A DNA stretch of 64,000 nt from positions 1-64,000 of the forward strand of contig NZ_BMWA01000039.1 of assembly GCF_014650995.1 (NCBI RefSeq), read 5' to 3'. Position numbers and translations under genes: made by a program. Of the stretch, positions 6,559 through 55,895 are shown in pieces (position 1 is the first letter of the stretch; each line of letters starts with the position of its first letter). The stretch is from Streptomyces viridiviolaceus (GTDB taxonomy: Bacteria > Actinomycetota > Actinomycetes > Streptomycetales > Streptomycetaceae). The notes under the pieces were generated by a model, which had not been told where the DNA came from, made no database searches, and was given only the letters and a program-made list of their open reading frames with translations.

Positions 6559-6644
6559 CGTGCTGTCCCTCCCCCACCGCGGCCGCGGTGATCGCTGTCG
6601 GCGTCTACGCGCCCATCGACGCCTTCCTGCTGCGGCGCGCCCGG

Positions 6645-7343
6645 TCAGCCGAAGCTGCGTCCGCCACATACGTAGAGGACCTGGCCGGTGAGGTAACCGG
6701 CCGCCTCCGAGCCCAACCAGGCCACGGCGTCGGCGATGTCCTCCGGCTGTCCGGCGCGGGCCAGTGGGACAGCGCTCACCACGCGCTCACGCACCCGGGC
6801 CGGCATCGCCCTGGTCATGTCCGACTCGACGAACCCCGGTGCCACGGCGTTGACGCGCAGGCGGGGCGCGAGCGCGAGGGCGAGGGCCCGGGTGCAGCCG
6901 ATGACCCCGGTCTTGGAGACCGCGTAGTTGAACTGTCCCACGTTGCCCAACTGCGCCCGCGAACTGAGATTGACGACCGAGCCGCCGTCGACGATGCGGC
7001 CAGCGAGGGCCTCGGTCAGCGCGTACGTCCCGCCGAGGTTGACCCGAACGACGGCACGGAAGACGGCCTCCTCCATCTTGTGGATGAGCGCGTCACGCGT
7101 GATGCCGGCGTTGTTCACCAGCATGGCCGGCGGCTCGGACGCGCCGTCCACCGCCGCGACGATCGCCGCGATCCCCTCGGGCTGCGTGATGTCCGCCTGC
7201 ACGGCGACCGCGCCGAGCTGCGCGGCCGTCTCGTGCACGGCCTGGCTCATGTCCACCAGGAGGAGGCTGTGCCGGGTGACGAGCCTTTCGGCGACGGCGC
7301 GTCCGATGCCTCGCGCGGCTCCGGTGACTACGGCAAGACTCAC
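6645..7343 (-). CDS. SDR-family 3-oxoacyl reductase (FabG-like)
   Basis: A 232-aa short-chain dehydrogenase. It carries the cofactor motif TGAARGIG at the N-terminus, the NNAG segment and the catalytic YAVSK. It would interconvert a 3-hydroxyacyl and a 3-oxoacyl thioester with NAD(P)H. The start is GTG at 7343 and overlaps the upstream gene's stop as GTGA, so the two are translationally coupled. The upstream gene looks like a degenerate SDR domain, and the pair resembles a split version of the two-domain high-molecular-weight FabG proteins. The MaoC gene just upstream supports a hydratase/reductase module on CoA esters. Confidence 0.88.
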   Translation of the reverse strand: MSLAVVTGAARGIGRAVAERLVTRHSLLLVDMSQAVHETAAQLGAVAVQADITQPEGIAAIVAAVDGASEPPAMLVNNAGITRDALIHKMEEAVFRAVVRVNLGGTYALTEALAGRIVDGGSVVNLSSRAQLGNVGQFNYAVSKTGVIGCTRALALALAPRLRVNAVAPGFVESDMTRAMPARVRERVVSAVPLARAGQPEDIADAVAWLGSEAAGYLTGQVLYVCGGRSFG

Positions 7344-7789
7344 GGCAGCATCGCTCCCAGGTGTTCGTGGCCGAGCATGACGACCTGACCGGCTGCTGCT
7401 CTGGTGGTGAGGGCGAACGTCACCGCCTCGGCGACCCTGTCCGGCGGTTCGTCGCCGTCGACGCCGATGACGGTGGCGTAGCGACCGCGCCGCCGGCCCT
7501 CGAAGGCGAGCGCGCGTGCGCCGCCGACCAGTCCGGCCGCGACGGCGGAGTCGAGCGGACCGGACCGGCCCAGGATCGCCGGCGAGCGCAGCAGGTAGAC
7601 CACGGGTGCCTCGACGGCCATCGCCTCACGGCTGAGCAGGAACGCCTCGGTCAGCTCGTCCTCGACCTGCCGCCACTCCCCCAGGTCACGCGCCGGTGCG
7701 AACACCAGGCCACCTGCGATGTCGCCGTCCGGACCACCGATCCGTCGCAGGGCGTGGCGGTCCACCGGGTCCCCGATGCGCGTCCTCAT
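7340..7789 (-). CDS. Small degenerate SDR/Rossmann-like protein coupled to FabG
   Basis: A 149-aa protein with no named family that I recognise firmly. Its second half has the rhythm of an SDR C-terminus: AGLVGGARALAFE where SDRs have a helix after the YxxxK motif, and GQVVMLGHEHLGAML where they have the closing GQVLxVDGG strand. It lacks the N-terminal glycine motif and the Tyr-Lys catalytic pair. It overlaps MaoC (ATGA) and FabG (GTGA) by four bases on each side, so it is translated as part of a tightly coupled trio. It could be the non-catalytic domain of a split high-molecular-weight FabG (inference). Confidence 0.7.
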   Translation of the reverse strand: MRTRIGDPVDRHALRRIGGPDGDIAGGLVFAPARDLGEWRQVEDELTEAFLLSREAMAVEAPVVYLLRSPAILGRSGPLDSAVAAGLVGGARALAFEGRRRGRYATVIGVDGDEPPDRVAEAVTFALTTRAAAGQVVMLGHEHLGAMLP

Positions 7790-38637: not shown

Positions 38638-38979
38638 ATGGCAGAGAAGACGAACGAGGAAATCGCGAAGCACTGGTTGCGTGCCCTCACCGACGTGGAT
38701 GTGTTCTACGAGTTCTGTGCGCCTGACTGCAAGGTCTGGCACAGCTCCGACGACAAGTGGATGACCGTCAAGGAGGCCATCGACGCCGTGCACAGCCGTG
38801 GGGGCCTGCCGCCGTTCCGCAACTCTCGTTACACGTTGACCGACAAGGGCTTCATCATGCAGACGTCGACGACACTCGACGGTACGAATGTGCACATCGT
38901 CCAGGTCGCCGTGGTGAAGGACGGCAAGGTCGTCTCGGCGGAGGAGTACATCGGCCCCGAGATGGACATCGCGGTCTAG
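38638..38979 (+). CDS. SnoaL/NTF2-like protein
   Basis: A 113-aa protein with the alpha+beta cone fold expected of the nuclear-transport-factor-2-like/SnoaL group: an N-terminal helix (NEEIAKHWLRALTDVDVFYEFC), a KVWH strand where active-site residues often lie, and a final strand DGKVVSAEEYIGPEMD. Members include isomerases, cyclases and hydrolases of small ring compounds as well as non-enzymatic binders. The ATG at 38638 follows GAGG. It is a one-gene unit with its own promoter and is convergent with the MBL hydrolase. The function is not assignable. Confidence 0.78.
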   Translation: MAEKTNEEIAKHWLRALTDVDVFYEFCAPDCKVWHSSDDKWMTVKEAIDAVHSRGGLPPFRNSRYTLTDKGFIMQTSTTLDGTNVHIVQVAVVKDGKVVSAEEYIGPEMDIAV

Positions 38980-40102: not shown

Positions 40103-40873
40103 TCAGCCTCGCGGGCCGCCGGCGACGTAGAGAACCTGCCCGGTCACGAAGCCGGCGCCCTCGCTGGCGAAGAAGGAGACCGCGTGGGCGATGTCGTCGG
40201 GTTCGCCCACCCGGGGCACGGGGGTGACGGCCGCGCGCTTGGCCTTGAACTCCTCGAAGGGAACGCCGAGCCGCTCGGCGGTGGCGGCGGTCATCTCCGT
40301 GACGATGAAACCGGGGGCGACGGCGTTGGCGGTGACACCGAACTTACCGAGTTCGATGGCGAGGGTCTTGGTGAAGCCCTGCATGCCTGCCTTGGCGGCG
40401 GAGTAGTTGACCTGGCCGCGATTGCCGAGCGCGGAGACGGACGAGAGGTTGATGATGCGGCCCCAGCCGGCCTTGGTCATGTGCGCCTGGGCGGCCTTGC
40501 TCATGAGGAATGCGCCGCGCAGGTGCACGCCGATGACCGCGTCCCAGTCTGCCTCGTCCATCTTGAACAGCAGGTTGTCCCGCGTGATGCCGGCGTTGTT
40601 CACCAGCACCAGGGGCGGGCCGAGTTCGGCCGCCACGCGCGCGACGGCCGACTCGACGCGTGCGGCGTCGGCCACGTCGACGCCGACGGCGAGGGCGCGC
40701 CCGCCCTCTTTCTCGATGGCGGCGACGGTGTCGGCGCACGCCGTCTCGTCGAGGTCGAGGACGGCGACGGCGAAGCCGTCACGGGCCAGACGCCGGGCGG
40801 TAGCGGCGCCGATACCGCGGGCGGCACCGGTGACGACGGCGACGCGCTGGGCGGTGGCGGTGGGTTCGGACAC
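40103..40873 (-). CDS. 3-oxoacyl-ACP/CoA reductase (FabG-type SDR)
   Basis: A 256-aa SDR. TGAARGIG, the NNAGITRDNLLFKM stretch typical of FabG, and the catalytic YSAAK are present. The start is GTG 40873 with AAGGAG seven bases upstream; a longer frame running into MaoC is rejected. It follows MaoC by 41 bases. With MaoC and the thiolase it makes a complete hydration, oxidation and thiolysis set for beta-oxidation through (R)-3-hydroxyacyl-CoA. Confidence 0.9.
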   Translation of the reverse strand: MSEPTATAQRVAVVTGAARGIGAATARRLARDGFAVAVLDLDETACADTVAAIEKEGGRALAVGVDVADAARVESAVARVAAELGPPLVLVNNAGITRDNLLFKMDEADWDAVIGVHLRGAFLMSKAAQAHMTKAGWGRIINLSSVSALGNRGQVNYSAAKAGMQGFTKTLAIELGKFGVTANAVAPGFIVTEMTAATAERLGVPFEEFKAKRAAVTPVPRVGEPDDIAHAVSFFASEGAGFVTGQVLYVAGGPRG

Positions 40874-40914: not shown

Positions 40915-41370
40915 TCAGCTGTAGAGGCGGGTGACCGTCTCCGCGACGCAGGCCGGCTTGTCGGCGCCCTCGGTCTCGACGGTCACCTTGAGGACCACCT
41001 GATGGCCACCGGGGACCTCGTCGGCCGCGACGACGTCCACCGAGGCCCTGACCTTGGAGCCGACGCGGACCGGGTTCATGAAACGCACCTTGTTCAGGCC
41101 GTAGTTGACGGCCATCTTCACGCCCTCGGTCCGGTAGACCTCTTTGACCAGCACGGGGATCAGGGACAGCGTCAGGAAACCGTGCGCGATCGTGGCACCG
41201 AACGGGCCGGACGCGGCGCGCTCGGCATCGACGTGGATCCACTGATGGTCGCCGGTCGCGTCGGCGAACAGGTCGATGCGGCCCTGGTCGACGGAGATCC
41301 ACTCACTGGTTCCGACATGGGTGCCTACGGCCGCGGCCAGCGCGGCAGGGGAAGGGAAAACCTTGGTCAT
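40915..41370 (-). CDS. MaoC-family enoyl-CoA hydratase
   Basis: A 151-aa MaoC protein with the hydratase site in DATGDHQWIHVD and the helix segment TIAHGFLTLSLIPVL, followed by GLNKVRFMNPVRVG, typical of the NodN-like branch. The ATG at 41370 lies 28 bases after the thiolase stop. It hydrates a 2-enoyl-CoA for the next-encoded FabG. Confidence 0.9.
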   Translation of the reverse strand: MTKVFPSPAALAAAVGTHVGTSEWISVDQGRIDLFADATGDHQWIHVDAERAASGPFGATIAHGFLTLSLIPVLVKEVYRTEGVKMAVNYGLNKVRFMNPVRVGSKVRASVDVVAADEVPGGHQVVLKVTVETEGADKPACVAETVTRLYS

Positions 41371-41398: not shown

Positions 41399-42595
41399 TC
41401 ACGCGGCGGAGAAGAGGGCGGCCATGCCCTGGCCGCCGCCGATGCACATGGTCTCCAGCGCGTACCGGCCGCCCCGGCGCCGCAGCTCGTGGAGCATCGT
41501 GGTCATGATCCGCACGCCGGTCGCCCCGATCGGGTGGCCGAGCGAGATGCCCGAGCCGTTGACGTTGATGCGGTCGGGGTCGTGCCAGCCCCACTCGGCC
41601 AGTACCGCGAGGACCTGGACGGCGAACGCCTCGTTGATCTCCACGAGGTCCAGATCGTCGAAGGACTTGCCCGTGCGGGCGAACAGCTTGGCCACGGCCG
41701 GGACCGGGCCGATGCCCATGACTGCCGGGTCGCAGCCCGCGGCCGCCCAACCCTCCAGGAAGCCGATGGGCTCCAGACCCAGGGCCTCCAGCCGGTCTTC
41801 GGCGACGATCAGGCACGCGGCGGCGGCGTCGTTCTGCTGGCTGGCGTTGCCGGCCGTGACGGTGCCGCCGGGCATCACGGTGCGCAGTCGGCCGAGGACC
41901 TCGGCGTTGGAGTCCGGGCGCACGCCCTCGTCCCGGTCGACGACGACCGGCTCCCCACGCCGTTGCGGCACGGTGACCGGCACCACCTCGTCCTTGAAGA
42001 CCCCGGATTCCCAGGCCGCCGCGGCCTTCAGATGGCTGGTGACGGCGAACCGGTCAGCGGCCTCGCGGGAGATGCCGTAGCGCTCCGCCAGGTTCTCCGC
42101 CGTCTCGACCATGCCGGAGATCTTCCCGAAGCGATGCTCGGGCTGCGACCGCTCCCGGCCCCGGTCGAGCCGGTCGTACAGTTCCACGTTGCCCGCGCGC
42201 CGCCCCCACCGCATCGAGGTGGTGTAGTGCTCGATGTTCGACATGCTCTCCACGCCACCGGCGAGCACCACGTCACAGGCGCCCGTCTGCACCATCATCG
42301 CCGCCGTCACCAGCGCCTGCAGTCCCCCGCCACACCGGCGGTCGGTCTGGAAACCCGGTACCCCGATCGGCAGCCCCGCGTGCAGCGCCGCCCAGCGTCC
42401 GATGCAGGGTGTCTCGGAATTGGCGTAGGACTGCGCCATGGCGACGTCGTCGATCCGCTCCGGATCGATGCCGGTCCGCTCGACCACCGCCTTGATGACG
42501 GTGGCGGCTAGGTCCTCGACCGGCACCGTCCGCAGGGCTCCGCCGAAAGCGCCCACGGGTGTGCGTACCGGACTGACGATGGCTGCTCGTCGCAT
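41399..42595 (-). CDS. Thiolase (acetyl-CoA C-acetyltransferase family)
   Basis: A 398-aa thiolase with nucleophile Cys88 in DRRCGGGLQA, NEAFAVQ, GHPIGATG and the second cysteine in ETMCIGGGQG. All catalytic elements are intact. The ATG at 42595 has GAGGGG about 10 bases upstream. It is the first gene of the operon thiolase, MaoC, FabG, MBL. A promoter TTGTCC-N17-TATTTT with an AT-rich box precedes it. It is only distantly related to the thiolase at 114-1298. Confidence 0.9.
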   Translation of the reverse strand: MRRAAIVSPVRTPVGAFGGALRTVPVEDLAATVIKAVVERTGIDPERIDDVAMAQSYANSETPCIGRWAALHAGLPIGVPGFQTDRRCGGGLQALVTAAMMVQTGACDVVLAGGVESMSNIEHYTTSMRWGRRAGNVELYDRLDRGRERSQPEHRFGKISGMVETAENLAERYGISREAADRFAVTSHLKAAAAWESGVFKDEVVPVTVPQRRGEPVVVDRDEGVRPDSNAEVLGRLRTVMPGGTVTAGNASQQNDAAAACLIVAEDRLEALGLEPIGFLEGWAAAGCDPAVMGIGPVPAVAKLFARTGKSFDDLDLVEINEAFAVQVLAVLAEWGWHDPDRINVNGSGISLGHPIGATGVRIMTTMLHELRRRGGRYALETMCIGGGQGMAALFSAA

Positions 42596-42674: not shown

Positions 42675-44204
42675 TCAGTGCACGGCGGCGAACAACAACG
42701 CCTCCTCATCCGCCTCCTCGGGGTCGAACTCGGCGGCGATGGTGCCTTGCTTCGCCACCAGAATGCGGTCCGACAGCGCCCGGATCTCCGGCAGGTACGA
42801 GGAGATGACCACCACGGCGACGCCCTCGTCGGCGAGTGCGCGGATCATCGCGTGGATCTCCACGATGGTCCCGAGGTCCACCCCCCGGGTGGGCTCATCG
42901 ATGATGGCCACCAGCGGCTTTCTGGTCAGTCCCTTCGCGAGGACGACCTTCTGCTGGTTTCCGCCGCTGAGCTCGACCAGCTTGGCCCGGTGCGGCTGCA
43001 GCGTGCGTACCTGGAAGCGCTCGACGAGACGCTGCGCCACCGACGTGCGCTCCCTGGACCGTACCAGGAGCGGCAGTCGCGGAGCGGCGCAGATGTGGCC
43101 GAGGTGGATGTTGTCGGCGATGGTGAAGTGGCTGAAGAAGCCCGATGCCTTGCGGTCCTCTGTGATGTGGACGACGCCGGCCCTGCGCGCATGGCGCGGA
43201 GTGCGGAAGCGTACTTCGCGTCCGTTCAAGCGGATCTTCCCCCCGCGCAGCCGACGCCGTTTGGTGACTCCACTGATGATCATCGCGGTCTCGCTGCGGC
43301 CCGCGCCCACGAGTCCGTAGATGCCGACGATCTCGCCGGGGCGGGCGGTGAACGACATGTTGCGCACGGCGGGCAGCAACGTCAGGTCCTCGACCTCCAG
43401 TACCGGCACGGGGTCCGGCGCCCGCCCGGGCGGTACGCGCCCGTACTCGACGCTGCGCCCGACCATCATCCGCACCACGTCGTCACGGTCGAACTGCGGT
43501 CTGGTCAGTGTGCCCTGCACTTCGCCGTCCCGGAGCACCGTGATGCGGTCGGCCTCGGTGAGGGCCTCGTCGAGCATGTGGGTGATGAAGACGACCCCGA
43601 TACCCTCGCGTTTGAGTCTGCGCATCGACAGGAACAGCTGCAACCGCTCCTCCGGGGTGACCGATGAGGTCGGTTCGTCCAAGATGACGAGTCTGGCCTG
43701 CCGGCGCACCGCACGGGCGATCTCCACCATCTGCTTCTGGGCGATGCCCAGCGCTCCCGCGGGGGCCTCGGGCCGGATGTGGAAGTTGTGCGATTCGAGC
43801 AGCTCACGCGCCGCGATGTTGAGGTGCGAGAGGTTGTTGAACGCCTTTTCGTTGCCCAGGAAGAGGTTCTGCGCGACCGTCATCGACTCGACCAGGGAAC
43901 CCTCCTGGTACACCATCGCGATGCCGGCTTCGGTGGACTCCTTCGGTGCCGAGAACACGCGCTCCCGGCCATCGACGGTGAGTGTGCCGCTGTCATGCGT
44001 GACGGCGCCGGCGACGATCTTGACGAGAGTGGACTTGCCGGCGCCGTTCTCGCCCAGGAGCGCGTGGATCTCCCCGGGTCGGACATCGAAGTCGATCTCC
44101 CGAAGGGCGTAGGTGCCGCTGTACCGCTTGCTGACGCCGTCGAGCCGGATGATCGGCCGGGCGGTGGCAGGGCTTTGGCTTTCCTTCGGCACGCGTGTCC
44201 TCAC
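42675..44204 (-). CDS. Ribose/sugar-type ABC transporter ATP-binding protein
   Basis: A 509-aa protein with two ATPase domains, as in RbsA/MglA. The first domain has Walker A GENGAGKST, a reduced signature (ALGIAQKQMVEIARA) and Walker B VILDEPTSS. The second has a degenerate Walker A (GLVGAGRSE) and a good signature LSGGNQQKVVLAKGL with DEPTRGVD, the usual RbsA pattern. The start is GTG 44204, overlapping the SMP-30 stop as GTGA. It is the last gene of a seven-gene operon and energises the permeases at 45298 and 48620. Confidence 0.92.
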   Translation of the reverse strand: MRTRVPKESQSPATARPIIRLDGVSKRYSGTYALREIDFDVRPGEIHALLGENGAGKSTLVKIVAGAVTHDSGTLTVDGRERVFSAPKESTEAGIAMVYQEGSLVESMTVAQNLFLGNEKAFNNLSHLNIAARELLESHNFHIRPEAPAGALGIAQKQMVEIARAVRRQARLVILDEPTSSVTPEERLQLFLSMRRLKREGIGVVFITHMLDEALTEADRITVLRDGEVQGTLTRPQFDRDDVVRMMVGRSVEYGRVPPGRAPDPVPVLEVEDLTLLPAVRNMSFTARPGEIVGIYGLVGAGRSETAMIISGVTKRRRLRGGKIRLNGREVRFRTPRHARRAGVVHITEDRKASGFFSHFTIADNIHLGHICAAPRLPLLVRSRERTSVAQRLVERFQVRTLQPHRAKLVELSGGNQQKVVLAKGLTRKPLVAIIDEPTRGVDLGTIVEIHAMIRALADEGVAVVVISSYLPEIRALSDRILVAKQGTIAAEFDPEEADEEALLFAAVH

Positions 44205-45301
44205 TGTGTCACCGCCTTCTCGTTCGCAACCTGCGGCTGCAACAGATTCCGATACCCCTGCGCGGCAACCACAACGCGACCACCACGCACGGCCACTCCC
44301 GTAATTCCGTGGCGCTCGCCGTCGACGCGGGAGTGGAGGCTTTCGGCGACACGCCCCGAACCGTCCAGCCGGAACGCGAGGCCGTAGGACCTCGCCGGTG
44401 CCCAGGGTTTGATCACGCCGAGCACCCGCAGCTGCCCCATCTGCAGGGTGTCGGTGTAGGGGGTCGTACAGCGCAGGCGCGGGACGAACCAGTCCTCGGG
44501 AGCGATGGTCCGCATCATCTCCGACGCCAGCTGCGGTTCGTCGAGGAGGAGTTCGGTGAAGCGGTTGCGGGGGTACGGGGCCACGAACCACCAGCCGTCG
44601 TCCGTCGCGGCAATGCGCCCGGGGTAGACAGGCAGGTTCGCGGCGAGGCGCGCAGACGGCTTGCCCAGGGAGGCCGTCATCCGCCGCTCGATCCGGTGAT
44701 CGCAACTGAGCGACACCAGTACGTCGGTGTCGGAGGCCACCTCGATGCCGGCCGGCCATCCCAGTCCTTCGGCCTCGATGCGGACGCGCGGACCGTCCAC
44801 CCGTACGATGCGTCCCGACCGGTCGCCGCGCAGCAGCGCACGGGCCCAACCGCCCGGAGACTCGTGCGACGAGCCGATCGTCACGAGCAGCGAACCGTCG
44901 GGAAGCCGGGCCGCGTCCGTGACGCACGAGGACACGGCCCGGTCCGCGCAGAGCTCCTCGGTCTCGCCGGAGGCGCCGACCGAGACCAGTCCCACGCCCT
45001 CGACCGCCGCGACGACGCCGCTGCCGGACGGAACCAGGACACCGACCTTGCCCCCCAGCGCGGCGACGACGCGGACCTCGTCGCCGCGCAGCTCGAAGAT
45101 CGACTCTTCGCTGGAGAACATGACGGTTCCCGATTCCGTCAGCACCAGGTCATCGGGTGTGTAGGCCTCAGCCGGGAGCAGCACGTGGGCCTCGTCGAGA
45201 CGGCGATTGGGGCGCAGGCCCGCCTCCATGGGCGGGACGGTGCGGTGGCGCGCCCAGTCGGGATTGATCCACTCCCTGATCACCGCGAGCGTGCGGTTCA
45301 T
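44201..45301 (-). CDS. SMP-30/strictosidine-synthase-like beta-propeller protein
   Basis: A 366-aa six-bladed propeller protein of the SMP-30/gluconolactonase/strictosidine-synthase-like group. Blade-like repeats include GTVMFSSEESIFEL, GWPAGIEVASDTDVLVSL, VYPGRIAATDDGWWFVAPYP and GERHGITGVAVRGG. It has no signal peptide. Members hydrolyse lactones or related esters using a calcium or zinc ion at the propeller centre. The ATG at 45301 overlaps the previous gene as ATGA, and its own end overlaps the ATPase gene. It follows a gene with a similar domain fused to the permease, so two such propellers act with this transporter. Confidence 0.85.
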   Translation of the reverse strand: MNRTLAVIREWINPDWARHRTVPPMEAGLRPNRRLDEAHVLLPAEAYTPDDLVLTESGTVMFSSEESIFELRGDEVRVVAALGGKVGVLVPSGSGVVAAVEGVGLVSVGASGETEELCADRAVSSCVTDAARLPDGSLLVTIGSSHESPGGWARALLRGDRSGRIVRVDGPRVRIEAEGLGWPAGIEVASDTDVLVSLSCDHRIERRMTASLGKPSARLAANLPVYPGRIAATDDGWWFVAPYPRNRFTELLLDEPQLASEMMRTIAPEDWFVPRLRCTTPYTDTLQMGQLRVLGVIKPWAPARSYGLAFRLDGSGRVAESLHSRVDGERHGITGVAVRGGRVVVAAQGYRNLLQPQVANEKAVTQ

Positions 45302-47469
45302 CGGTCCACCACCGCCAGTGAGGGCGCGGTGGTCGTGCCGGGCACGCTTGCCGGGTCGATCGGGCCGACCTCGTCGGATTCGAGCCGCAGCCGGCCGACG
45401 CGGTTGTTGCTGACGCCGCACAGGTACAGGTGGCCGGCGTGCTCCTTCACTGCGGTCACCATCGGATGGTTCCTCAGCGTCGCGTCCCACATGACGCCCA
45501 GCACCTCCCCACGGTCGTTGAACTTCATCACGCACGAGACGTTGAGCTGCGGAACGACCCAGCTGTCCAACGGCACCTCCTGCGTCATCCGCCGCCGCAC
45601 GGCCGGGTACTTGGTCAGCAGGTCCGACATCGGTGTCCGCATGGACACGAACGGCAGCCAGTAGTTGCCGTCGGAAGAGCGGTTGATGTTGTCCGGGTGG
45701 CCCGGCAGGTTCTCCAGTACCGGCTCCAGCTGCCCCTGCTTGGGTCCGGCGATCCACAGGCGGTCGACCCGGCACAGGCCGGTACTCGCGACCAGGATCG
45801 ACCGGCCGTCGTGTGCCGTGCAGATGCCGTTGGGAAAGACATGGTGTGAGATGACGACCTCGGTGCTGCCGTCGGGATCCACCCTTACCACACGGCCGTT
45901 CGGCCTGGACTCGACCAGTTCCACCATGTATTCGGCGGCGTTGGTGCGGGTGGAGAAGTCCGACACGAAGATCGCGCCGTCGGGAGTGACGTCGAGGTCG
46001 TCGACGGCACGCAGTCCTGAGTCGTCGTGCAGTGAGAACGGGCTGCGCCTCACCTTGTCGGCGACGAGTTCCGGCTCGCCGTCGGCGTGGATCCGGTAGA
46101 CGCCCATGCCGCCGACCGCCACGAGGAGCCGGCGCTCGTGGTCCCAGGCGTGTCCCAGGGGAAGGCCACCGGTCCTGGCGAAGATCTCTCCTTCGGTGTC
46201 GTCCGGCCCGGCGAACCGCCACACCCAGCCGCGCCGGTCACCGCAGTACATGTTGCCCTCGCGATCCACCGCGCAGTCCTCGGCGCCCTCGATCTTGCCG
46301 AGGCCGATCGGGGACGCGTCGGTCAGCCGGTCGTTGACCGTCCAGACCGTTCCCGGCTCGGTGACGTCCACGAGGGGGCCGAGTGTGATGCGGCCGGGGT
46401 CGATCCTGAGCTTCTCCGCCGTGCGCTGCCGGTACTTGCCCCACTTGAGGTCCAGGACGGCGAACAGCAGCAGGGCCGCCGCGAGGATGACCGTGTAGGA
46501 GGACCCCTCAGCACCCGTGGCGATCGTGCCCTGCTGGATCACCTGGACCACGACGATGCCGACGGTCGCCCGCAGCACCGATCCGCGTCCGCCCTTGAGG
46601 CTGACCCCGCCCAGGACCACCGCGGTCAGCGCCACCAGTTCCCAGCCCTGTCCGACGTCCGGGTCGGTGCGGCCCAACCGCGCGGCGGTGAGCAGCCCGG
46701 CCGTGCCGGCGAGGGCACCGGACAGGACGTAGGTGCAGAAGACCACCCGGGCGACCGGGATTCCGTTGCGGCGCGCCGACCGCCGGTCGGAGCCCACGGC
46801 CGCGATCCACCACCCCCATCTGGACCGGGTCAGCCCCACGTGGACGACGATCAGTACGACCGCGAAGACGACCCACCCCGTGGGCACGCCGGCCACCGCT
46901 CCGGCGCCGAGGAAGTCCCACACGATGTCCTGCTCGGGGACGCCGAGTTGGAAGCTGTAGGCACTCTGCAGCGCCGCTGCGGCACCGCCGAAGGCCACGA
47001 GAGTGACCAGCGTGGTGATGAAGGGCCGCATGTTGACCCGCGCGATCAGGAACCCGTTCACGGCGCCGAGGGCGGATCCGGCGAGGATCGCCGCGGGGAC
47101 GACGAGGGCCATCGGCCAGTTCCAGGCCCGTGAGGCCACCATGGCGCCCAGGGACGCCAGGCCCACGATTGAGCCAATGGACAGGTCGATGCCGCCGCCC
47201 ACGAGCACGACGGTCAGTCCGATGGCGAGGAGGCCCTTCTCGGTCGCCTCGTCGAGGATGAGCGGAGCATCACCCGGGCCCACGGGGGTCGTGGCCGTGA
47301 CGAGCACACTGAGCAGTACGGCCAGCCCGAGAGGGACCGCTCCCTCCATCCATCGCTGCCCGAACAGCTCGGAGAGGGTACGGAAGGGAGCCAGCCGGTC
47401 CCGCCTGCTTCCGCCGGTCAGGGGGAATGCGTCGATCTCCCGGGAGAACGCCTTCGTCTTCATCGGCAT
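45298..47469 (-). CDS. ABC transporter permease fused to an SMP-30-like propeller
   Basis: A 723-aa fusion. Residues 1 to about 345 are a RbsC-type permease with several hydrophobic segments and the family motif VLVGGGIDLSIGSIVGLASL near residue 92 and LTAVVLGGVSLKGGRGS near 281. After a basic junction (KWGKYRQRTAEK, about 343-353) residues 355-723 form a strictosidine-synthase/SMP-30-like propeller with EDCAVDREGNMYCGDRRG, GHPDNINRSSDGNYWLPF and VKEHAGHLYLCGVSNNRVGRL. The basic junction predicts a cytoplasmic propeller. The frame is continuous and codon usage is uniform, so the fusion is real, not a read-through. The ATG at 47469 lies five bases after the binding-protein stop. Confidence 0.88.
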   Translation of the reverse strand: MPMKTKAFSREIDAFPLTGGSRRDRLAPFRTLSELFGQRWMEGAVPLGLAVLLSVLVTATTPVGPGDAPLILDEATEKGLLAIGLTVVLVGGGIDLSIGSIVGLASLGAMVASRAWNWPMALVVPAAILAGSALGAVNGFLIARVNMRPFITTLVTLVAFGGAAAALQSAYSFQLGVPEQDIVWDFLGAGAVAGVPTGWVVFAVVLIVVHVGLTRSRWGWWIAAVGSDRRSARRNGIPVARVVFCTYVLSGALAGTAGLLTAARLGRTDPDVGQGWELVALTAVVLGGVSLKGGRGSVLRATVGIVVVQVIQQGTIATGAEGSSYTVILAAALLLFAVLDLKWGKYRQRTAEKLRIDPGRITLGPLVDVTEPGTVWTVNDRLTDASPIGLGKIEGAEDCAVDREGNMYCGDRRGWVWRFAGPDDTEGEIFARTGGLPLGHAWDHERRLLVAVGGMGVYRIHADGEPELVADKVRRSPFSLHDDSGLRAVDDLDVTPDGAIFVSDFSTRTNAAEYMVELVESRPNGRVVRVDPDGSTEVVISHHVFPNGICTAHDGRSILVASTGLCRVDRLWIAGPKQGQLEPVLENLPGHPDNINRSSDGNYWLPFVSMRTPMSDLLTKYPAVRRRMTQEVPLDSWVVPQLNVSCVMKFNDRGEVLGVMWDATLRNHPMVTAVKEHAGHLYLCGVSNNRVGRLRLESDEVGPIDPASVPGTTTAPSLAVVDR

Positions 47470-47474
47470 GGTCC

Positions 47475-48551
47475 TCACCGGCCCTTGTAGCAGGCGATGG
47501 TGGTGTCGTCCACGTTGGACCGGTCCACCACCGTGTGGGAGACATAGGCGACGGTGTGCGTGCTGCCGGCGGGAGCACCGCCCTGGACGAGCTGCTGCGC
47601 CGTGACGACCGCCGCCTCCCCCACGCCCTGCACGTCGTAGGCAGCCGAGGCCGTGACCTTGCCGGCCCGCAGCGCGTCGCACCAGCGGGTGTCGGCAGCC
47701 ATCGTGTAGACGCCGATGGAGTCCGGCCGGATCACGCCGCGCTCGGCCGCGTCCGCGACCGCGTCGCCGACGGCGATCGCGTTGAGGTCGTAGGCCACCA
47801 TGTACGCGCAGATGTTGTTCTTCTGCTGCTGGGTGATCGAGGCCGCCGCCTGCTGCGCCAACGCGTTCTGCCACTGGGTGTGCGCGGTGGTGACGACCTC
47901 GTACCCCGCCGGATCCAGCACGTGGTGCACGCCCTTGGACCACATCAGCGAAGCGGCGTCGTTGCCCGGCCCGTCGATGATCGCCATGCGCTTGGGCGCG
48001 CCTCGCTTCTCGCAGTCCTGAACGGCCCGCCTGGTGATGTCCTCGGCGGCGTGCACGGAGTCGACACCGATGAACGCGTCGCCGAGCCGGCTGGAGACCA
48101 TGTTCACGACGACGGTGTGGATCCCCGCCCGCTCGGCGGCGTCGATCTGCTTGGTCAGGACGCCGACGTCAGGGTTGTGCAGGATCAGCACGTCGACGGC
48201 GCGCCGGGCGACGAGATCGTTGATGATCTTGACCATCTTGTCGGTGTCGAAGTTGGGGTCGTAGACCCGGAAGTCCGCTCCCAGGTTCCCGAAGGCCCGC
48301 TCCATCGTGCTGCCCCAGTTCAGGGTCAGGTTGTATCCCTTGTAGAGGATCGGGACGAACGCGATGCGCTTGCCCTTCATGGCCTCGTGGGTCTTCTTGT
48401 GCGCGTCGAAAAGCTGGACGTTCCGACCGAACGTCTGCTTGCCGCCGCCGGCCCCGCCGCCCGCGGACGAGCCGCCCCTGTCCACCGTGCAGCCGGCAAG
48501 GGTCATGGCGGTCGCTGCCGCCGTGAGCAGGGCAGTGAGCTTCTTCTTCAT
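47475..48551 (-). CDS. Substrate-binding lipoprotein of the ABC transporter
   Basis: A 358-aa periplasmic-binding-protein-like lipoprotein (Peripla_BP_4 type). The signal sequence MKKKLTALLTAAATAMTLAG ends in a lipobox with Cys21, so it is anchored outside the membrane. A Gly/Ser linker follows. VDVLILHNPDVGVLTKQIDAA and AYMVAYDLNAIAVGDAVADA are typical hinge-region strands. The ATG has AAGGA nine bases upstream. It delivers a sugar, lactone or other small polar compound to the two permeases. Confidence 0.9.
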   Translation of the reverse strand: MKKKLTALLTAAATAMTLAGCTVDRGGSSAGGGAGGGKQTFGRNVQLFDAHKKTHEAMKGKRIAFVPILYKGYNLTLNWGSTMERAFGNLGADFRVYDPNFDTDKMVKIINDLVARRAVDVLILHNPDVGVLTKQIDAAERAGIHTVVVNMVSSRLGDAFIGVDSVHAAEDITRRAVQDCEKRGAPKRMAIIDGPGNDAASLMWSKGVHHVLDPAGYEVVTTAHTQWQNALAQQAAASITQQQKNNICAYMVAYDLNAIAVGDAVADAAERGVIRPDSIGVYTMAADTRWCDALRAGKVTASAAYDVQGVGEAAVVTAQQLVQGGAPAGSTHTVAYVSHTVVDRSNVDDTTIACYKGR

Positions 48552-48619: not shown

Positions 48620-49636
48620 TCATAGCTCGTCCGACCTGGCCGTCTCCTCGTCCCGTGGGTGCAGCCACGCGTCGAGTGCGATCGCCGCGATGAGCACACC
48701 GCCGCGTACCAGGTCCTGCAGGGGCGAGCTCAGCCCGCGCAGGATCAGCAGGTTGTTGAGTACGCCCACGAACAGCGCTCCGGCGAGGACGCCGAGGATC
48801 GTGCCGCGCCCGCCGGACAGCGAGACTCCGCCGATCACCGTGACGGTCAGCGCCGTGAACAGCAGGGGGTCGAAGGACGTCACCGTCGTCTGGACGCTGC
48901 CTTGGACGGAGACCGTCATGTAGCCGGCCAGCAGGGCCAGCAGCGCGGAGACGACGTAGCCGAGGACCTGGAGCGGCCGGACCGGCGCCCCGCTGGATCG
49001 CGCGGTGTCGAAGTTGTCCCCCATGGCCCGGGTGAGCCGACCGGCCACCGTGTACGAAACGAACAGCCAGGCGAGCACGAAGACGGCTCCCGCGACGAAG
49101 ATCGCCCTGGGCACGCCCAGGACCGAACCGCTGCTCAGCTCCGAGATGGCCGACGAGGCGGGCAGGGAGTAGAAGTTCTGGTCCAGCAGCAGGATGTCGA
49201 TGCCGCCGATGGTCAGCAGGCCCGTGGCGAGCGTCGCGAACAGCGCCGGCACTTCGAGATACGCCACGAGTATGCCGTTCACGACTCCGACGACCAGGGC
49301 CACGCCCGCGAGCAGGGCGATGGCCTGCCATTCCGACATGCCGTCCGCCATGAACGCCAACGTGGCCTGCGCGCAGCCGAGCGCGACTCCGGCGACGGAG
49401 AGGTCGATGCCCTTGGCGAGGATGACGACGGCCTCGCCGACGGCGAGGATCCCGAACGCGGCCGACAGCCGCAGCAGGTTCTCCACGTTGCCGCCGGTGA
49501 GGAATCCGTCCGTCGTCACGGCACCGGCCAGGCACAGCAGGGCGGTGATGCCCAGGACGAAGAAGCCCTGTTCGACGCGGGCGAGTCGGTCGCGTGGGGA
49601 GAGGTCCGGCCTCGCGTCCACAGCAGCCACTCCCAT
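48620..49636 (-). CDS. Ribose-type ABC transporter permease
   Basis: A 338-aa RbsC-type permease with about ten hydrophobic segments. VILAKGIDLSVAGVALG and FTALTVTVIGGVSLSGGRGT mark the family. The ATG at 49636 gives a normal length; an upstream GTG (49702) would add 22 residues of unlikely sequence. It pairs with the fused permease at 45298, so the transporter has two different permease subunits, only one carrying the propeller. Confidence 0.88.
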   Translation of the reverse strand: MGVAAVDARPDLSPRDRLARVEQGFFVLGITALLCLAGAVTTDGFLTGGNVENLLRLSAAFGILAVGEAVVILAKGIDLSVAGVALGCAQATLAFMADGMSEWQAIALLAGVALVVGVVNGILVAYLEVPALFATLATGLLTIGGIDILLLDQNFYSLPASSAISELSSGSVLGVPRAIFVAGAVFVLAWLFVSYTVAGRLTRAMGDNFDTARSSGAPVRPLQVLGYVVSALLALLAGYMTVSVQGSVQTTVTSFDPLLFTALTVTVIGGVSLSGGRGTILGVLAGALFVGVLNNLLILRGLSSPLQDLVRGGVLIAAIALDAWLHPRDEETARSDEL

Positions 49637-49741
49637 GAGTGTTACCGCCAATCCAGTGGGTCGGGTGTGCTTCTCGAACTCCACGGCGCACCGCGGCTCC
49701 ACGCCAGGAGTCGGTGGCGGGCGGCGCGCCGTGGCGGTGTT

Positions 49742-50791
49742 TCAGAACTCGATGACGGCCTTGCCGCCGGTCTGCTTGTCGAACTCCCGGTAGGCCTGCT
49801 CGGCGTCGTCCAGGGTCCAGCGGTGGGTGAACAGCCTGTCGACGTCGACGCCATGTCGTGCGACGAAGCTCGCACAGTCCGCCTGGCCGGAGACGGAGAA
49901 GGTGTACGAGCCGAGGATGGTCAGCTGCTTGCGGATGACGTCCGGACTGACGTCCACGGTGACGTCACCGCCTTCGCCCACGAACGCGACCGTGCCCCAC
50001 GACGCGCTGCCGCGGACAGCAGCGAGCCGCGCGGCGGAGGCGCCGGAGCAGTCCAGCGCCCGGGTCGCTCCCCTTCCGCCGGTCAGTTCGCGGATCGCCT
50101 CGACCGGGTCGGTCGTGCCCGCGTCGATCGCGTGGGCCGCGCCGAACTCTTCGGCCCGTGCGATCCGTTCGCTCGCGACGTCGACGGCGATCACTTCGGC
50201 TCCCATCGCCGAGGCGAGCTGCACCGCCGACTGTCCGACCGGCCCGAGGCCGAACACCGCGATCGTGTCCCGGGCGGTCAGGTCCAGCCGCACCAGCGCG
50301 CCGAAGGCCGTTCCGGTGCCGCAGGAGATCGCCGCACCGGCGGCGAAGGAGACCTCGTCCGGCAGGGGGACGAGGGTCCTGGCCGGCACCTTCAGGTAGT
50401 CGGCGTGGCCGCCGTGTGCGGTGGCGCCGAAGATGGTCGCGCCCCGCTCGCACATCTGCGTCCAGCCCGTACGGCACAGGTGACAGAACCCGCACCCGTC
50501 GTAGTGGTGGACCATGACCCGGTCGCCGACCCGCACGGAGCGTTCGTCCACGTTGCTGCCGACGGCCGCGACGACCCCGCACGGTTCGTGTCCGGCGATG
50601 ATGCCGCTGTCGTCGCCCTTGAGCCCGAACGCCGCGAGGGCTTCGCCGGCCGGTGCACGGTAGAAGCGGAGGTCGCTGCCGCACATGCCCGAGGCCCTGA
50701 CTTCGAGGACGACGTCATCGGGTCCGGGAGCCGGATCGTCGAAGGCGACGATCTCCAGCTCGCGGTCCCCGTGGAACACGACTCCTCGCAT
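49742..50791 (-). CDS. Zinc-dependent alcohol dehydrogenase (MDR family)
   Basis: A 349-aa zinc alcohol dehydrogenase. Catalytic zinc ligands are Cys37 (GMCGSD) and His68-Glu69 (AGHEP). The structural zinc lobe has Cys100, Cys103, Cys106 and Cys114. FGLGPVGQSAVQLASAMGAEVIAVDV is the NAD-binding fold. The ATG follows AAGGAGGAAAG. It lies 45 bases after the aldehyde dehydrogenase and before the transporter genes, so it probably oxidises the imported alcohol or polyol to a carbonyl that the ALDH or propeller hydrolases process. Confidence 0.92.
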   Translation of the reverse strand: MRGVVFHGDRELEIVAFDDPAPGPDDVVLEVRASGMCGSDLRFYRAPAGEALAAFGLKGDDSGIIAGHEPCGVVAAVGSNVDERSVRVGDRVMVHHYDGCGFCHLCRTGWTQMCERGATIFGATAHGGHADYLKVPARTLVPLPDEVSFAAGAAISCGTGTAFGALVRLDLTARDTIAVFGLGPVGQSAVQLASAMGAEVIAVDVASERIARAEEFGAAHAIDAGTTDPVEAIRELTGGRGATRALDCSGASAARLAAVRGSASWGTVAFVGEGGDVTVDVSPDVIRKQLTILGSYTFSVSGQADCASFVARHGVDVDRLFTHRWTLDDAEQAYREFDKQTGGKAVIEF

Positions 50792-50836: not shown

Positions 50837-52303
50837 TCAGGACAGGGCGTCGGCCAGGGCTGCCGGGAGGCCGTACGACTTGAGCTCCACGTAGGAGTCG
50901 AAGCCCTCCAGGCCGGCCTCCCGGCCTATGCCGCTGCACTTGAACCCGCCGATCGGGGCGTGGAAGCCCACCCCATGACCGTTGAGTTCGACGGTGCCGG
51001 TGCGGATGCGGCGGGCGACGGCCAGGGCGTGCTCCGGGTCCGAGGTGAACACCGAGCCGTTGAGCCCGTAGTCGGAGTCGTTCGCGATGGCCACCGCCTG
51101 CTCCTCGTCGTCGAAGGCGAGGACGGCGAGGACCGGACCGAAGATCTCCTCCTGTGCGATGCGCATGGACGGCTGGACGTCGGTGAAGACCGTCGGCTCG
51201 ACGAACCACCCGTGTTCGAGCCCGGCGGGGCGGCCACCGCCCACCAGGACCTTGGCCCCCTCCTTGCGGCCCAGGTCGATGTAGCCCTCCACGCGCTCGC
51301 GCTGGGGTGCACTCACCACGGGGCCGACCTGCGTGGCCGGGTCGGCGGGGTCCCCGACCGGCATGGACCCCACCATCGCGGTCAGCCGGTCGAGTAGTTC
51401 GGCGTGTCGTGTCCGCGACACGACGATCCTCGTCTTGTTGCTGCACGCCTGGCCGTTGTTGCGAAGCGACAGCGCCCGGATCGATTCGACGGCCACGTCG
51501 AGGTCGGCGTCGTCGAGGATGACGGCCGCGGACTTGCCGCCGAGCTCCAGCGTCACCCGTCGCAGGTCCTGACCGCACAGGGAGGCGATGCGCCGGCCGG
51601 CCGCCGTGGAGCCGGTGAACGACACCTTGTCCACGTCCCGGTGGGTCACGAGGTACTCGCTGACGTCCCGGTGTGCGGGAACGATGTTGACCACGCCCCC
51701 GGGCAGACCGGCGTCCTGCAGCATCTCGGCGAACAAGTAGGAGTTCAGGGGGGCTTCGGGTGAGGGCTTGAGGATCACCGTGCATCCGGTCAGGAGCGCC
51801 GGCGCCAACTTGAGCATCGTCACCAGCAGCGGCGCATTCCAGGGCACGACGGCCGCCACCACGCCGACCGGTTCACGGGTCACGAGCGCGTTGCCGGTGT
51901 TCGAGCGGCGCACCGTACTCCACGGGTACTGCGGCGCGAGGTCGAGGAAGCTGTCGAGCAGCAACCGGGCGCCGGTGGTCTGCATCGTCCGCGACAGCGA
52001 GATCGGGCACCCCATCTCCTGAGAGACGAGGGTCGCCGTCTGCTCGTGCCGGTCCCCCAGCGCCACACTGAGCCGGCGCAGGACCTCCAGCCGCTCCTGA
52101 AGCTGCATCCGCGGCCAGGGACCGTGCTCGAACGCCTCCCGCGCGGCCGCCACCGCCTGGTCGACGTCCGCCCTGGACGCGGCGGGTACGCGCGCCACTG
52201 CCTGCTCGGTGAAAGGCGACACGACGTCGATCGTTTCGTCGGTGGCGGGACTCACCCATCGACCACCGATGTAGAGCTTCGAGTAGTTGCCTTGCCAGAC
52301 CAT
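50837..52303 (-). CDS. NAD(P)-dependent aldehyde dehydrogenase
   Basis: A 488-aa aldehyde dehydrogenase with general base Glu253 (LELGGKSA) and nucleophile Cys287 (NGQACSNK). The subgroup resembles those acting on aromatic or terpenoid-type aldehydes in actinobacteria, but this is weak. The ATG has GGAG seven bases upstream. It heads the seven-gene operon running to 42675 and is divergent from AraC copy 2 across an AT-rich box. Confidence 0.9.
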   Translation of the reverse strand: MVWQGNYSKLYIGGRWVSPATDETIDVVSPFTEQAVARVPAASRADVDQAVAAAREAFEHGPWPRMQLQERLEVLRRLSVALGDRHEQTATLVSQEMGCPISLSRTMQTTGARLLLDSFLDLAPQYPWSTVRRSNTGNALVTREPVGVVAAVVPWNAPLLVTMLKLAPALLTGCTVILKPSPEAPLNSYLFAEMLQDAGLPGGVVNIVPAHRDVSEYLVTHRDVDKVSFTGSTAAGRRIASLCGQDLRRVTLELGGKSAAVILDDADLDVAVESIRALSLRNNGQACSNKTRIVVSRTRHAELLDRLTAMVGSMPVGDPADPATQVGPVVSAPQRERVEGYIDLGRKEGAKVLVGGGRPAGLEHGWFVEPTVFTDVQPSMRIAQEEIFGPVLAVLAFDDEEQAVAIANDSDYGLNGSVFTSDPEHALAVARRIRTGTVELNGHGVGFHAPIGGFKCSGIGREAGLEGFDSYVELKSYGLPAALADALS

Positions 52304-53588: not shown

Positions 53589-55019
53589 TCAGCCGTCCGA
53601 CCTGCCCAGCCGGCTCATGATGGTGCCGAGGTCGTCGACCGTTTCGAGTTTCAGGACGGCGTCCACCACGTGGTCGATGTCCGAGGCCGAGATGACGCCT
53701 TCGGCGTGCCCGCGGAACTTGGCGACCAGTTCGTCCGTCGTCATGGTGGTCTCGGGCTCCGGCGACTTGCTGCCCTTGGGGTACCGCCGCTCTCCGACGA
53801 AGGTCCTGCCCCGCGCCGAGACCTCGATCTTGGCGGGACGGCTGGCCGCGTGGCCGGAGATCAGCTCCACGTAGTCGGGGTGGACCTCGTACGTCACTCG
53901 GTCCATGAGGCCCATGACCGAGTCTCCGAAAACGAGATCGGGGTCCTGCCACGCCTTGGTGGGCGGCACCCGGTGCGCCCCGACCGCGAGACCGTGGGCG
54001 ATGCTGAACTGCGCGTCGTGGACATGTTCGATGCGGCGATTGACCCAGAGGGGCTGCTCCACGAAGCCTTCGACCCACGCCTTGATGCCGTCGATCTCCG
54101 TCGGCTTGATGTCGTTCGCCTCCACGATCTCCGTCAGGGAGTCGAGCAGCGCGTGGAGAATGCGGCAGTGCGGGTACGGCTTGTAGGACTGCTCGGCGGG
54201 GAACCGCCAGTCGCTCCCGAGCCCGTCGGTGATGACCTCCGGCTCCCACCGGCGCGTCCCTATGAAGCGCGGGAACCCGTACTCCCGGTCGTCCAGCACC
54301 CGCAGGTCACCGCGGTGGCCCAACTCGCCCATGTGCGCCGCCGTCAGCGCCGCCTGGGTCAGGGCGCCGGCCATCAGGTACTTGATCGTGGAGGTCGGGG
54401 CGTGCTCGCTCCAGGAACGGAAGGAGTTGACCGGCGCGATGCTGCCGGCGATGCCCAGCGCATGGGACAGAACGCTCTTGTTGAGCCCCTTCACCCGAGC
54501 GACGGCCGCAGTGGCGCCGAAGACGGTACTGCTGTACCCGTAGACCGGTGGCGGGGACACCTTGCCGTCCTTCACGTCCCTCAGGTAGTCCATGGCCTTG
54601 CCGATCCGGTAAGACATCTCATGGGCGACGGCCACCGCGGTGATGAGTTCCTTGCCCGAAGCGCCCATGCTCTCGCCGACGGCCAGCGCGCCCGGCAGCA
54701 CGTACGGTGTGACGTGCCCCGGCGGCAGCACCGCGTCGGCGTCGAGCGTGTTGATCAGCTCGCCGTTGGCGAACGCGGCACCGAAAACCGACACCCGGTC
54801 ACCGGTGCCGATGATCGTCGCGTCGCCGCCCGATCCGCCGGTCATGCGCCCGTACTCGATGCCTATGCGGCCCTTCGGCTCGTTGATGGCCCCTAGGGCG
54901 CAGCCGATCGAGTCCAGCACGATCCGCTTGCACTCGTCGACCACGTCGGGGGGAAGCTGGTCGAACTCGCTGTCGAGGGTGAAGCCCGCCAACTGCTCGA
55001 CGAGGGTCTTCTCGGTCAT
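53589..55019 (-). CDS. MmgE/PrpD-family protein (copy 2)
   Basis: A 476-aa MmgE/PrpD protein. The active-site region reads LDADAVLPPGHVTPYVLPGALAVGE, and SYKPYPHCRILHALLDSL matches the family's second conserved segment (KPYPSCRxxH). It is only distantly similar to copy 1. The ATG at 55019 follows GAGAGGA. An AT-rich box lies 50-63 bases upstream. It may dehydrate, isomerise or decarboxylate a dicarboxylic or tricarboxylic intermediate; the CitE-like lyase nearby would suit such a product (inference). Confidence 0.87.
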   Translation of the reverse strand: MTEKTLVEQLAGFTLDSEFDQLPPDVVDECKRIVLDSIGCALGAINEPKGRIGIEYGRMTGGSGGDATIIGTGDRVSVFGAAFANGELINTLDADAVLPPGHVTPYVLPGALAVGESMGASGKELITAVAVAHEMSYRIGKAMDYLRDVKDGKVSPPPVYGYSSTVFGATAAVARVKGLNKSVLSHALGIAGSIAPVNSFRSWSEHAPTSTIKYLMAGALTQAALTAAHMGELGHRGDLRVLDDREYGFPRFIGTRRWEPEVITDGLGSDWRFPAEQSYKPYPHCRILHALLDSLTEIVEANDIKPTEIDGIKAWVEGFVEQPLWVNRRIEHVHDAQFSIAHGLAVGAHRVPPTKAWQDPDLVFGDSVMGLMDRVTYEVHPDYVELISGHAASRPAKIEVSARGRTFVGERRYPKGSKSPEPETTMTTDELVAKFRGHAEGVISASDIDHVVDAVLKLETVDDLGTIMSRLGRSDG

Positions 55020-55133: not shown

Positions 55134-55895
55134 TCACCAAACCCGATCACCCCGACCGCCGAACACCACCACCGCGTCCCCCACGTCCGCGCGCGTGGTG
55201 CGGAACCGGTTGACCGGGTGCGCGTTATCGGCATAACCGAAGGAGACCGCGCACACGACGAGCCGGTCCGGCGGGATCCGGAAGTACTCACGAACGTGGT
55301 CCGAGTGCATGGCGATCGCCGCCTGCGGAATCGTCGCGACACCCAGCGACGACGCGGCGTTGATGAGGTTCGCGACGTACCCGCCGCAGTCGACCGCACC
55401 GTACACACCCTGGCCGCGGTCGGTGGTGACGACGGCGACATGAGGAGCGCCGAAGAAGTCGAAGTTCTTCAGGCGCTGCTCCTCGCGAGCCTCCCAGTCC
55501 TCCCGCGCGATCCCCAGACTCGCGTAGAGCGCGTGCCCCGCCCCACGCCGGCGCTCCTTGTAGACACCGCGGTACTCCGCGGGCATCTCGAAGTCGGACA
55601 CCTGATCGTGGGTACGCGCGTGACCGGTCAGACTCTCGGCGAACCGCCGAGTCGCCTCGCCCTTCGTCAGGTAGACCTGCCACGGCTGGGTGTTGCACCA
55701 GGATGCGGTCCGCTGGGCGATCGCGAACATCTCCGCGATCACGTCATCGGGAACCTGGTCCGGGAGATAGGCGCGACAGCTCCACCGTTCGCCGATCAGC
55801 CTCTCGAAGCCGACGGGCACCCCCGTCTTCAGGGGACGACCTGCACGGTCATCCACATTGCGCACCTGACTCTCAGGGGCTTCTGGCGTGCTCAC
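55134..55895 (-). CDS. Nitroreductase-family FMN enzyme
   Basis: A 253-aa nitroreductase-fold protein. RWSCRAYLPDQVPDD matches the RRSxRxF start of the family and ASWCNTQPWQVYLTKG the FMN-binding segment. GVATIPQAAIAMHSD and the final VSFGYADNAHPVNRFRTTR are also typical. It is longer than RutE-type members. The start is GTG 55895 with GGAGG six bases upstream. It could reduce a nitro group, an enone or a flavin. It is divergent from the MHS transporter at 56075 through an AT-rich gap and may act on what that transporter imports. Confidence 0.87.
   Translation of the reverse strand: MSTPEAPESQVRNVDDRAGRPLKTGVPVGFERLIGERWSCRAYLPDQVPDDVIAEMFAIAQRTASWCNTQPWQVYLTKGEATRRFAESLTGHARTHDQVSDFEMPAEYRGVYKERRRGAGHALYASLGIAREDWEAREEQRLKNFDFFGAPHVAVVTTDRGQGVYGAVDCGGYVANLINAASSLGVATIPQAAIAMHSDHVREYFRIPPDRLVVCAVSFGYADNAHPVNRFRTTRADVGDAVVVFGGRGDRVW

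Follow-up and report, generated by a model that had tools for sequence, protein, structure and literature searches.

What is an enzyme-like propeller doing at the end of a membrane permease? The question is raised by a gene in a 64,000-nucleotide stretch of Streptomyces viridiviolaceus DNA (assembly GCF_014650995.1, contig NZ_BMWA01000039.1, positions 1 to 64,000 of the forward strand; the whole stretch is referred to here as the window), which encodes an RbsC-type permease fused to a six-bladed propeller of the strictosidine synthase-like (SSL) type. ATP-binding cassette (ABC) importers and the enzymes that process what they carry are, as a rule, separate, and importers of the RbsC type generally work without a propeller domain. 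A sequence-only reading of the region had suggested that an imported lactone or ester is hydrolysed by the propeller as it enters the cell. We found the fusion to be real, conserved and old, and part of a five-gene cassette; that this cassette encodes an RbsC-type importer with a built-in cytosolic propeller hydrolase and a non-catalytic propeller partner is a prediction from sequence, to which we give an even chance. The component families are known; the combination of permease and propeller appears to be new, as far as full-text searches of the openly licensed literature directed at the fusion show, since these brought up no account of it.

The fusion gene and its cassette

The 723-codon frame at positions 45298-47469 on the minus strand is free of internal stops in translation and all of its domains score above their Pfam cut-offs, which bears out the in-frame fusion of an RbsC-type permease to a propeller seen in the sequence-only reading. 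Within the propeller, SSL_N matches at fusion residues 375-419 (E 4.5e-10, 39.7 bits, cut-off 18.9), SGL at residues 421-608 (E 7.1e-10, above the curated cut-off) and Str_synth at residues 490-575 (E 1.2e-14, 54.6 bits, cut-off 25). With both Str_synth and SSL_N above cut-off, the fused propeller falls into the SSL subgroup of the N6P superfamily, and no other Str_synth match occurs in the 9.13-Mb genome at an E-value of 0.001. In plasmid annotation the protein is called 'SMP-30/gluconolactonase/LRE family protein' in 10 of 12 named records and a permease in the other two (2/12); each public name covers one half, so the fusion is hidden from counts made by name.

The cassette runs in the order permease 1, binding protein, fusion, free propeller, ATPase, with all five genes on the minus strand in the window (Table 1), where a 4-bp overlap joins the fusion stop to the free propeller start (ATGA) and another of 4 bp joins the free propeller to the ATPase gene. 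Both channel subunits carry BPD_transp_2, and they are accompanied by a one-chain double ATPase and a Peripla_BP_4 protein, the composition of an RbsC-type (CUT2-like) importer. Importers of the RbsABC, AraFGH and Lsr type likewise consist of two RbsC-type permeases, a one-chain double ATPase and a Peripla_BP_4 protein; here, however, one permease has a C-terminal propeller, a second propeller is encoded, and the NCBIfam cut-offs of the named sugar-importer equivalogs are missed by far (at best 144.4 bits for the fusion and 125.9 bits for permease 1 against 398 bits, the ribose permease cut-off). The binding protein is the member least conserved between phyla (23-28% identity, versus 39-44% for the fusion), so the ligands may differ between loci.

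Distribution and conservation

Six short peptides of the query, matched exactly, were used to scan 84,980 species at one genome per species. This approach, which reaches close relatives only, gave 26 pattern matches, 16 of which were no relatives, and nine loci at 72-82% identity: seven in Nocardia, which are close kin, one in Amycolatopsis deserti and one in a Propionibacteriales metagenome-assembled genome. A tblastn search of 72,556 plasmids recovered 23 records at 1e-20, 14 of them covering at least 80% of the query, whilst a proteobacterial query against the same plasmids recovered 24 records, 15 covering at least 80%. The search in other actinobacteria that the sequence-only reading had proposed was answered by nine loci there, and by proteobacterial plasmids in addition. 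Fifteen plasmid fusion loci and one orphan propeller were taken into the comparison. Counts out of 25 below refer to the window plus 24 loci (L001-L009, L011-L016, L018-L026); left out of these 24 were L010 (the window itself), L027-L031 (from the search of a related genus described below), L017 (an SSL propeller without a permease on a Pseudomonas aeruginosa plasmid) and plasmid NZ_CP015745.1, whose fusion copy spans the record start and which is counted among the 16 plasmid accessions with the fusion.

The five-gene order was identical in 24 of 24 loci, which come from Actinomycetota and from plasmids of alpha-, beta- and gammaproteobacteria (the L021 record ends within the ATPase gene), with relatives of the ATPase and binding protein genes in all 24. 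The fusion measured 702-763 residues in each of the 24 loci, with start codons chosen by script, and of 150 genomes from a related genus, reached through G050, 14 carried it across 706 or more of the 723 residues, none with an internal stop. A sequencing or frame error at the junction, which the sequence-only reading had named as a way to be wrong, is ruled out by the open frame and by these full-length copies. Phylogenetic trees built for the fusion and for the ATPase each split the ten actinobacterial rows (including the window) from the fifteen proteobacterial rows with support 100/100. No split version of the fusion was seen among the loci examined, proteobacterial chromosomes being outside the search. 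In both Salipiger abyssi and Shinella sp. HZN7 the fusion and free-propeller genes occur as two diverged copies on separate plasmids (L018 and L021; NZ_CP015738.1 and NZ_CP015745.1).

At 1e-60, the only match among 394 sampled genomes of the window's own family was its own genome, and the fusion was found in 1 of 396 genomes in a phylum sample. This rarity in both family and phylum implies that the cassette probably arrived in this genome by horizontal transfer.

The fused propeller

By sequence, the four divalent-metal ligand positions of the N6P hydrolases are complete in 25 of 25 fused propellers (Table 1), so the feared absence of metal-binding residues from all homologues did not materialise. 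The positions were mapped through an alignment to rice TGW6, from which a residue numbering offset of 28 was derived; D491 is also invariant (25/25). At position 4 an Asp serves in DFPase and SMP-30, and the Asp-Asn pair in PON1. Two or three of the ligands are acidic in the fused propeller, compared with one in TGW6. Passages of the TGW6 structural work name its Glu-59, Asn-167, Asn-226 and Asn-272 as Ca2+-chelating positions and describe hydrolysis of indole-3-acetic acid-glucose (PMC10958001). According to passages of a study of the superfamily, the vast majority of SSL proteins seem to retain the four metal ligands and are likelier to be hydrolases than synthases, and an SSL protein with three of the four was hydrolytic (PMC4215206).

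Searched against the PDB, the fused-propeller profile matched TGW6 (8kg3) at E 5.4e-33, strictosidine synthases at 2.9e-22 to 4.1e-21 and DFPase at 2.9e-8 at best. The earlier description as an SMP-30/strictosidine-synthase-like propeller accordingly stands for the strictosidine-synthase-like branch, and is less apt for SMP-30 proper. SSL proteins such as TGW6 share the Str_synth and SSL_N domains and the four ligand positions with the fused propeller, but here an importer carries the propeller as a tethered domain. SMP-30/gluconolactonase, DFPase, PON1 and Drp35 have the same fold (Z ~25 for the free-propeller model) and the same ligand positions, whereas the fused propeller is nearer to the SSL branch in sequence and is membrane-tethered.

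The fused propeller is under strong purifying selection. The ratio of nonsynonymous to synonymous substitution rates (dN/dS) in eight pairs, which are non-independent as five are Nocardia pairs sharing members, was 0.036-0.172 for the fused propeller, a similar 0.045-0.197 for the permease and 0.165-0.296 for the free propeller, the last being 1.7 to 5.1 times the value of the fused propeller in the eight pairs.

The free propeller

The free and fused propellers are related (BLASTP 7e-12; profile-profile E 2.1e-32 over 291 columns), although the free propeller's own Pfam match lies below cut-off (17.5 versus 25 bits). An AlphaFold2 (AF2) model (mean predicted local distance difference test score, pLDDT, 77.6) has the SSL fold, with TGW6 as the best structural match (Z 28.5, root-mean-square deviation 2.7 over 272 residues) and strictosidine synthases at Z 25.9-27.2. 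Profile matches to the designed 'Pizza' protein and to NHL propellers were judged to reflect repeat similarity and no close kinship.

The second, free propeller of the sequence-only reading is a propeller by profile and model, but its sequence does not support a role as another hydrolase. Ligand position 1 is Asp in place of Glu in 24 of 25 sequences and position 2 is Thr, again in 24/25, whilst positions 3 and 4 are without Asn and Asp, respectively, in all 25; Gly, Ala or Ser stands in place of the lost ligand, followed by Arg in 24/25. The four-ligand set of the N6P metal-dependent hydrolases is absent from these 25 sequences, a loss on which the reading as another metal-dependent lactonase was rejected, and with the Asn and Asp ligands gone lactonase activity of the protein encoded from 44201 is predicted to be negative. 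Twenty-nine columns are nevertheless invariant, including W152, Y226, P227, Q287, K298, S321, S324, R325 and H331. The start of the protein has no strong hydrophobicity and does not look like a signal peptide, so we read it as cytosolic.

The free-propeller gene goes together with that of the fusion. The two genes overlap by NTGA in the window and in all but one of the 24 loci (24/25), and a free-propeller query against the 72,556 plasmids at E 1e-5 returned 16 records, exactly the 16 fusion accessions. Constant order, overlap and plasmid co-occurrence rule out a chance neighbourhood of the two propellers. Eight other plasmid records match a 702-residue fusion query from residue 315 or later, that is, essentially the propeller alone.

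Topology

Ten helices were assigned to the permease from mean hydropathy and from an AF2 model of the fusion with low confidence (10 close sequences, mean pLDDT 36), which was consulted for its helix limits only. No usable PDB relative came out of a profile search with the permease domain (best E 0.029), so the topology rests on charges. Leaving aside the two tails, cytosol-assigned loops hold 8-11 lysines and arginines and outer loops 1-4, the cytosol-assigned side being higher in 25/25, and a further 4-7 occur in the 20 residues after the last helix. The permease C-terminus and the propeller are predicted to be cytosolic; the sequence-only reading placed the propeller inside the cell from the basic residues of the junction, and this wider set of charges points the same way in every sequence.

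Gene neighbourhood

In the window, thiolase, MaoC and FabG genes continue the minus-strand run downstream of the cassette and are followed by a gene for an MBL-fold protein. Zinc alcohol dehydrogenases, CoA transferases, MaoC, AMP-binding ligases, acyl-CoA dehydrogenases and alpha/beta hydrolases recur among the loci (the flanks of L019, L022 and L025 are without annotation), and no single pathway is common to the 24. Of the 24 loci, 9 have an aldehyde dehydrogenase match in their flanks (partial in L023), with ~1.3 copies expected in 320 kb of flanks from the density in the window genome (37 matches per 9.13 Mb), an expectation uncorrected for kinship and set against counts from a different search. 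On the Shinella sp. HZN7 plasmid (L012) a degradative 3-hydroxy-3-methylglutaryl-CoA (HMG-CoA) reductase gene at 6333-7658 abuts permease 1 (434 bits, cut-off 260), which hints at mevalonate or mevalonolactone as a concrete first candidate ligand in that locus. An itaconate-type pathway was considered for the neighbours and set aside: one lyase of L013 resembles RipC but reaches 169 of 375 bits.

Other genes were also seen near the cassette. MmgE/PrpD proteins of the window (53589-55019, minus strand) and of Nocardia locus L003 (5020-6453) are 63% identical, and genes annotated as MmgE/PrpD occur in Salipiger (L018) and Paracoccaceae La 6 (L016). Small proteins of 113 residues in the window (38638-38979, plus strand) and 123 residues in L003 (22456-22827) are 41% identical, neither with a Pfam match at 1e-5. 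Nitroreductase-family genes of the window (55134-55895, minus strand) and of Paraburkholderia L013 (6430-7137) share 33% identity.

Table 1 Coordinates of the cassette, its domains, the metal-ligand positions and neighbouring genes in the window
Feature	Position	Strand	Basis
Fusion gene, RbsC-type permease + SSL-type six-bladed propeller, 723 residues	45298..47469	-	Open frame, Pfam
Permease domain BPD_transp_2, residues 79-338	46456..47235	-	Pfam E 1e-39, 136.8 bits, cut-off 26.8
Basic junction, residues 341-374, predicted cytosolic	46348..46449	-	Mean 5.8 lysines + arginines in 34 residues
SSL-type propeller, ~residues 375-700	45370..46347	-	Pfam and PDB profile matches
E397, metal-ligand position 1, Glu 25/25, aligns with TGW6 Glu-59	46279..46281	-	
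D490, metal-ligand position 2, Asp 20 and Asn 5 of 25, aligns with TGW6 Asn-167	46000..46002	-	
N547, metal-ligand position 3, Asn 25/25, aligns with TGW6 Asn-226	45829..45831	-	
D593-N594, metal-ligand position 4, both 25/25; N594 aligns with TGW6 Asn-272, D593 just before	45688..45693	-	
Free propeller, 366 residues, 4-bp overlap with fusion gene, metal ligands 3 and 4 lost	44201..45301	-	Sequence, profile, AF2
ATPase with two ABC domains, RbsA/AraG type, GTG start overlapping free propeller stop	42675..44204	-	ABC_tran, two stretches
Substrate-binding lipoprotein	47475..48551	-	Peripla_BP_4, E 4.6e-32
Permease 1, RbsC type, unfused	48620..49702	-	BPD_transp_2, 111.3 bits, cut-off 26.8
Zinc-type alcohol dehydrogenase	49742..50791	-	75-78% identical gene, same place, in L002 and L007
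Aldehyde dehydrogenase	50837..52303	-	Pfam
Thiolase, downstream catabolic context	41399..42595	-	Pfam
MaoC hydratase	40915..41370	-	Context
FabG-type reductase	40103..40873	-	Context

Proposed mechanism and alternatives

From the observed parts, order, conservation, ligand positions and charge pattern we infer metal binding, hydrolysis, pairing of the propellers and trapping of the ligand. The binding protein would hand its ligand to a heterodimeric channel of permease 1 and the fusion, driven by the one-chain double ATPase, and the fused propeller would bind a divalent metal at E397/D490/N547/D593 and open an ester or lactone bond of the ligand on the cytosolic side, so that the ligand, changed on arrival, could not leave again. 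The free propeller may have no catalytic role and instead form a pair, either with the fused propeller or with the permease 1 side, in which it helps to hold ligand or product. Where present, alcohol dehydrogenase, aldehyde dehydrogenase and acyl-CoA enzymes would oxidise the released alcohol or acid, and the presence of their genes next to the cassette, in the window and at some of the other loci, suits oxidation of a released alcohol. Hydrolysis might also be vectorial, the ligand passing from the channel to the tethered metal propeller and being cleaved before release, with the metal-less sister completing a pseudo-symmetric pair on the other transporter half; we regard this as possible but doubtful. 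Transport is coupled to chemical change in SulP transporter-carbonic anhydrase fusions, the phosphotransferase system and vectorial acylation, but these involve other transporter families and other enzymes, and we know of no second pseudo-enzyme in such transporter-enzyme fusions.

Several points speak against the proposed mechanism. Peripla_BP_4 is mainly a sugar-binding family and does not point to a lactone. The flanks of 15 of the 24 loci are without an aldehyde dehydrogenase match, and the enrichment is rough, as the Nocardia loci are close kin and the density is borrowed from the window genome; the neighbouring pathways also differ, which makes one common substrate unlikely. A position of the propeller at the channel exit, as the sequence-only reading had it, is a guess, closeness to the exit being what the ~35-residue linker allows. 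Finally, in the passages of the TGW6 work referred to above, similar ligand residues were accompanied by no Ca2+ in anomalous diffraction (PMC10958001), so the conserved positions of the fused propeller do not prove a metal.

The main rival is that the two propellers form a cytosolic sensing or regulatory unit, which binds ligand or product and adjusts transport by trans-inhibition, the metal site being structural. C-terminal regulatory domains adjust transport in some other ABC importers, the free propeller is metal-less throughout (25/25) yet keeps invariant residues of its own as a binding pocket would, and both propellers stay with the transporter whilst the pathway genes around it vary. 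The full set of hydrolase ligands kept by all 25 fused propellers, from two phyla, is, however, more than a binding domain needs, and we consider this explanation unlikely, if still a serious one.

It is more improbable that the pair is a structural scaffold, stabilising the heterodimeric channel or clamping the ATPase with residual or no catalysis. The constant order in 24/24 loci and the 4-bp overlap in 24/25 suggest a fixed stoichiometry, and among plasmids the free propeller is found only with the fusion, as a scaffold would have it; but the invariant E/D/N/D set would be superfluous in a scaffold, importers of the RbsC type generally do without such a domain, and the higher dN/dS of the free propeller (1.7 to 5.1 times) is unlike two equal halves.

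A non-hydrolytic condensation enzyme like the plant strictosidine synthase is very improbable for the fused propeller, despite its Str_synth match and the strictosidine synthases among its best PDB profile matches. The catalytic Glu of strictosidine synthase lies in the last blade, a region where the fused propeller aligns weakly (11.5 bits). The four metal-ligand positions are kept here, whereas in passages of the superfamily study the proven strictosidine synthases appear as metal-independent outliers of the SSL subgroup (PMC4215206). An accidental fusion or an annotation or sequencing artefact without function, for which the rarity of the gene might be cited (its own genome alone in 394 of the family, 1/396 in the phylum sample), is scarcely credible given full length in 24/24 other loci of two phyla, strong purifying selection, and 14/150 genomes of one genus with the fusion, a patchy spread that fits horizontal transfer.

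Significance

Substrates are known for few SSL proteins, and the cassette offers a way into this group. As a conserved importer with a hydrolase-like domain of its own and a pseudo-enzyme partner, it would also be a natural test case for whether chemistry at a channel exit renders uptake irreversible or faster. Should the hydrolysis prove vectorial, a single machine would carry out both transport and the first catabolic step, and its chemistry would make uptake irreversible.

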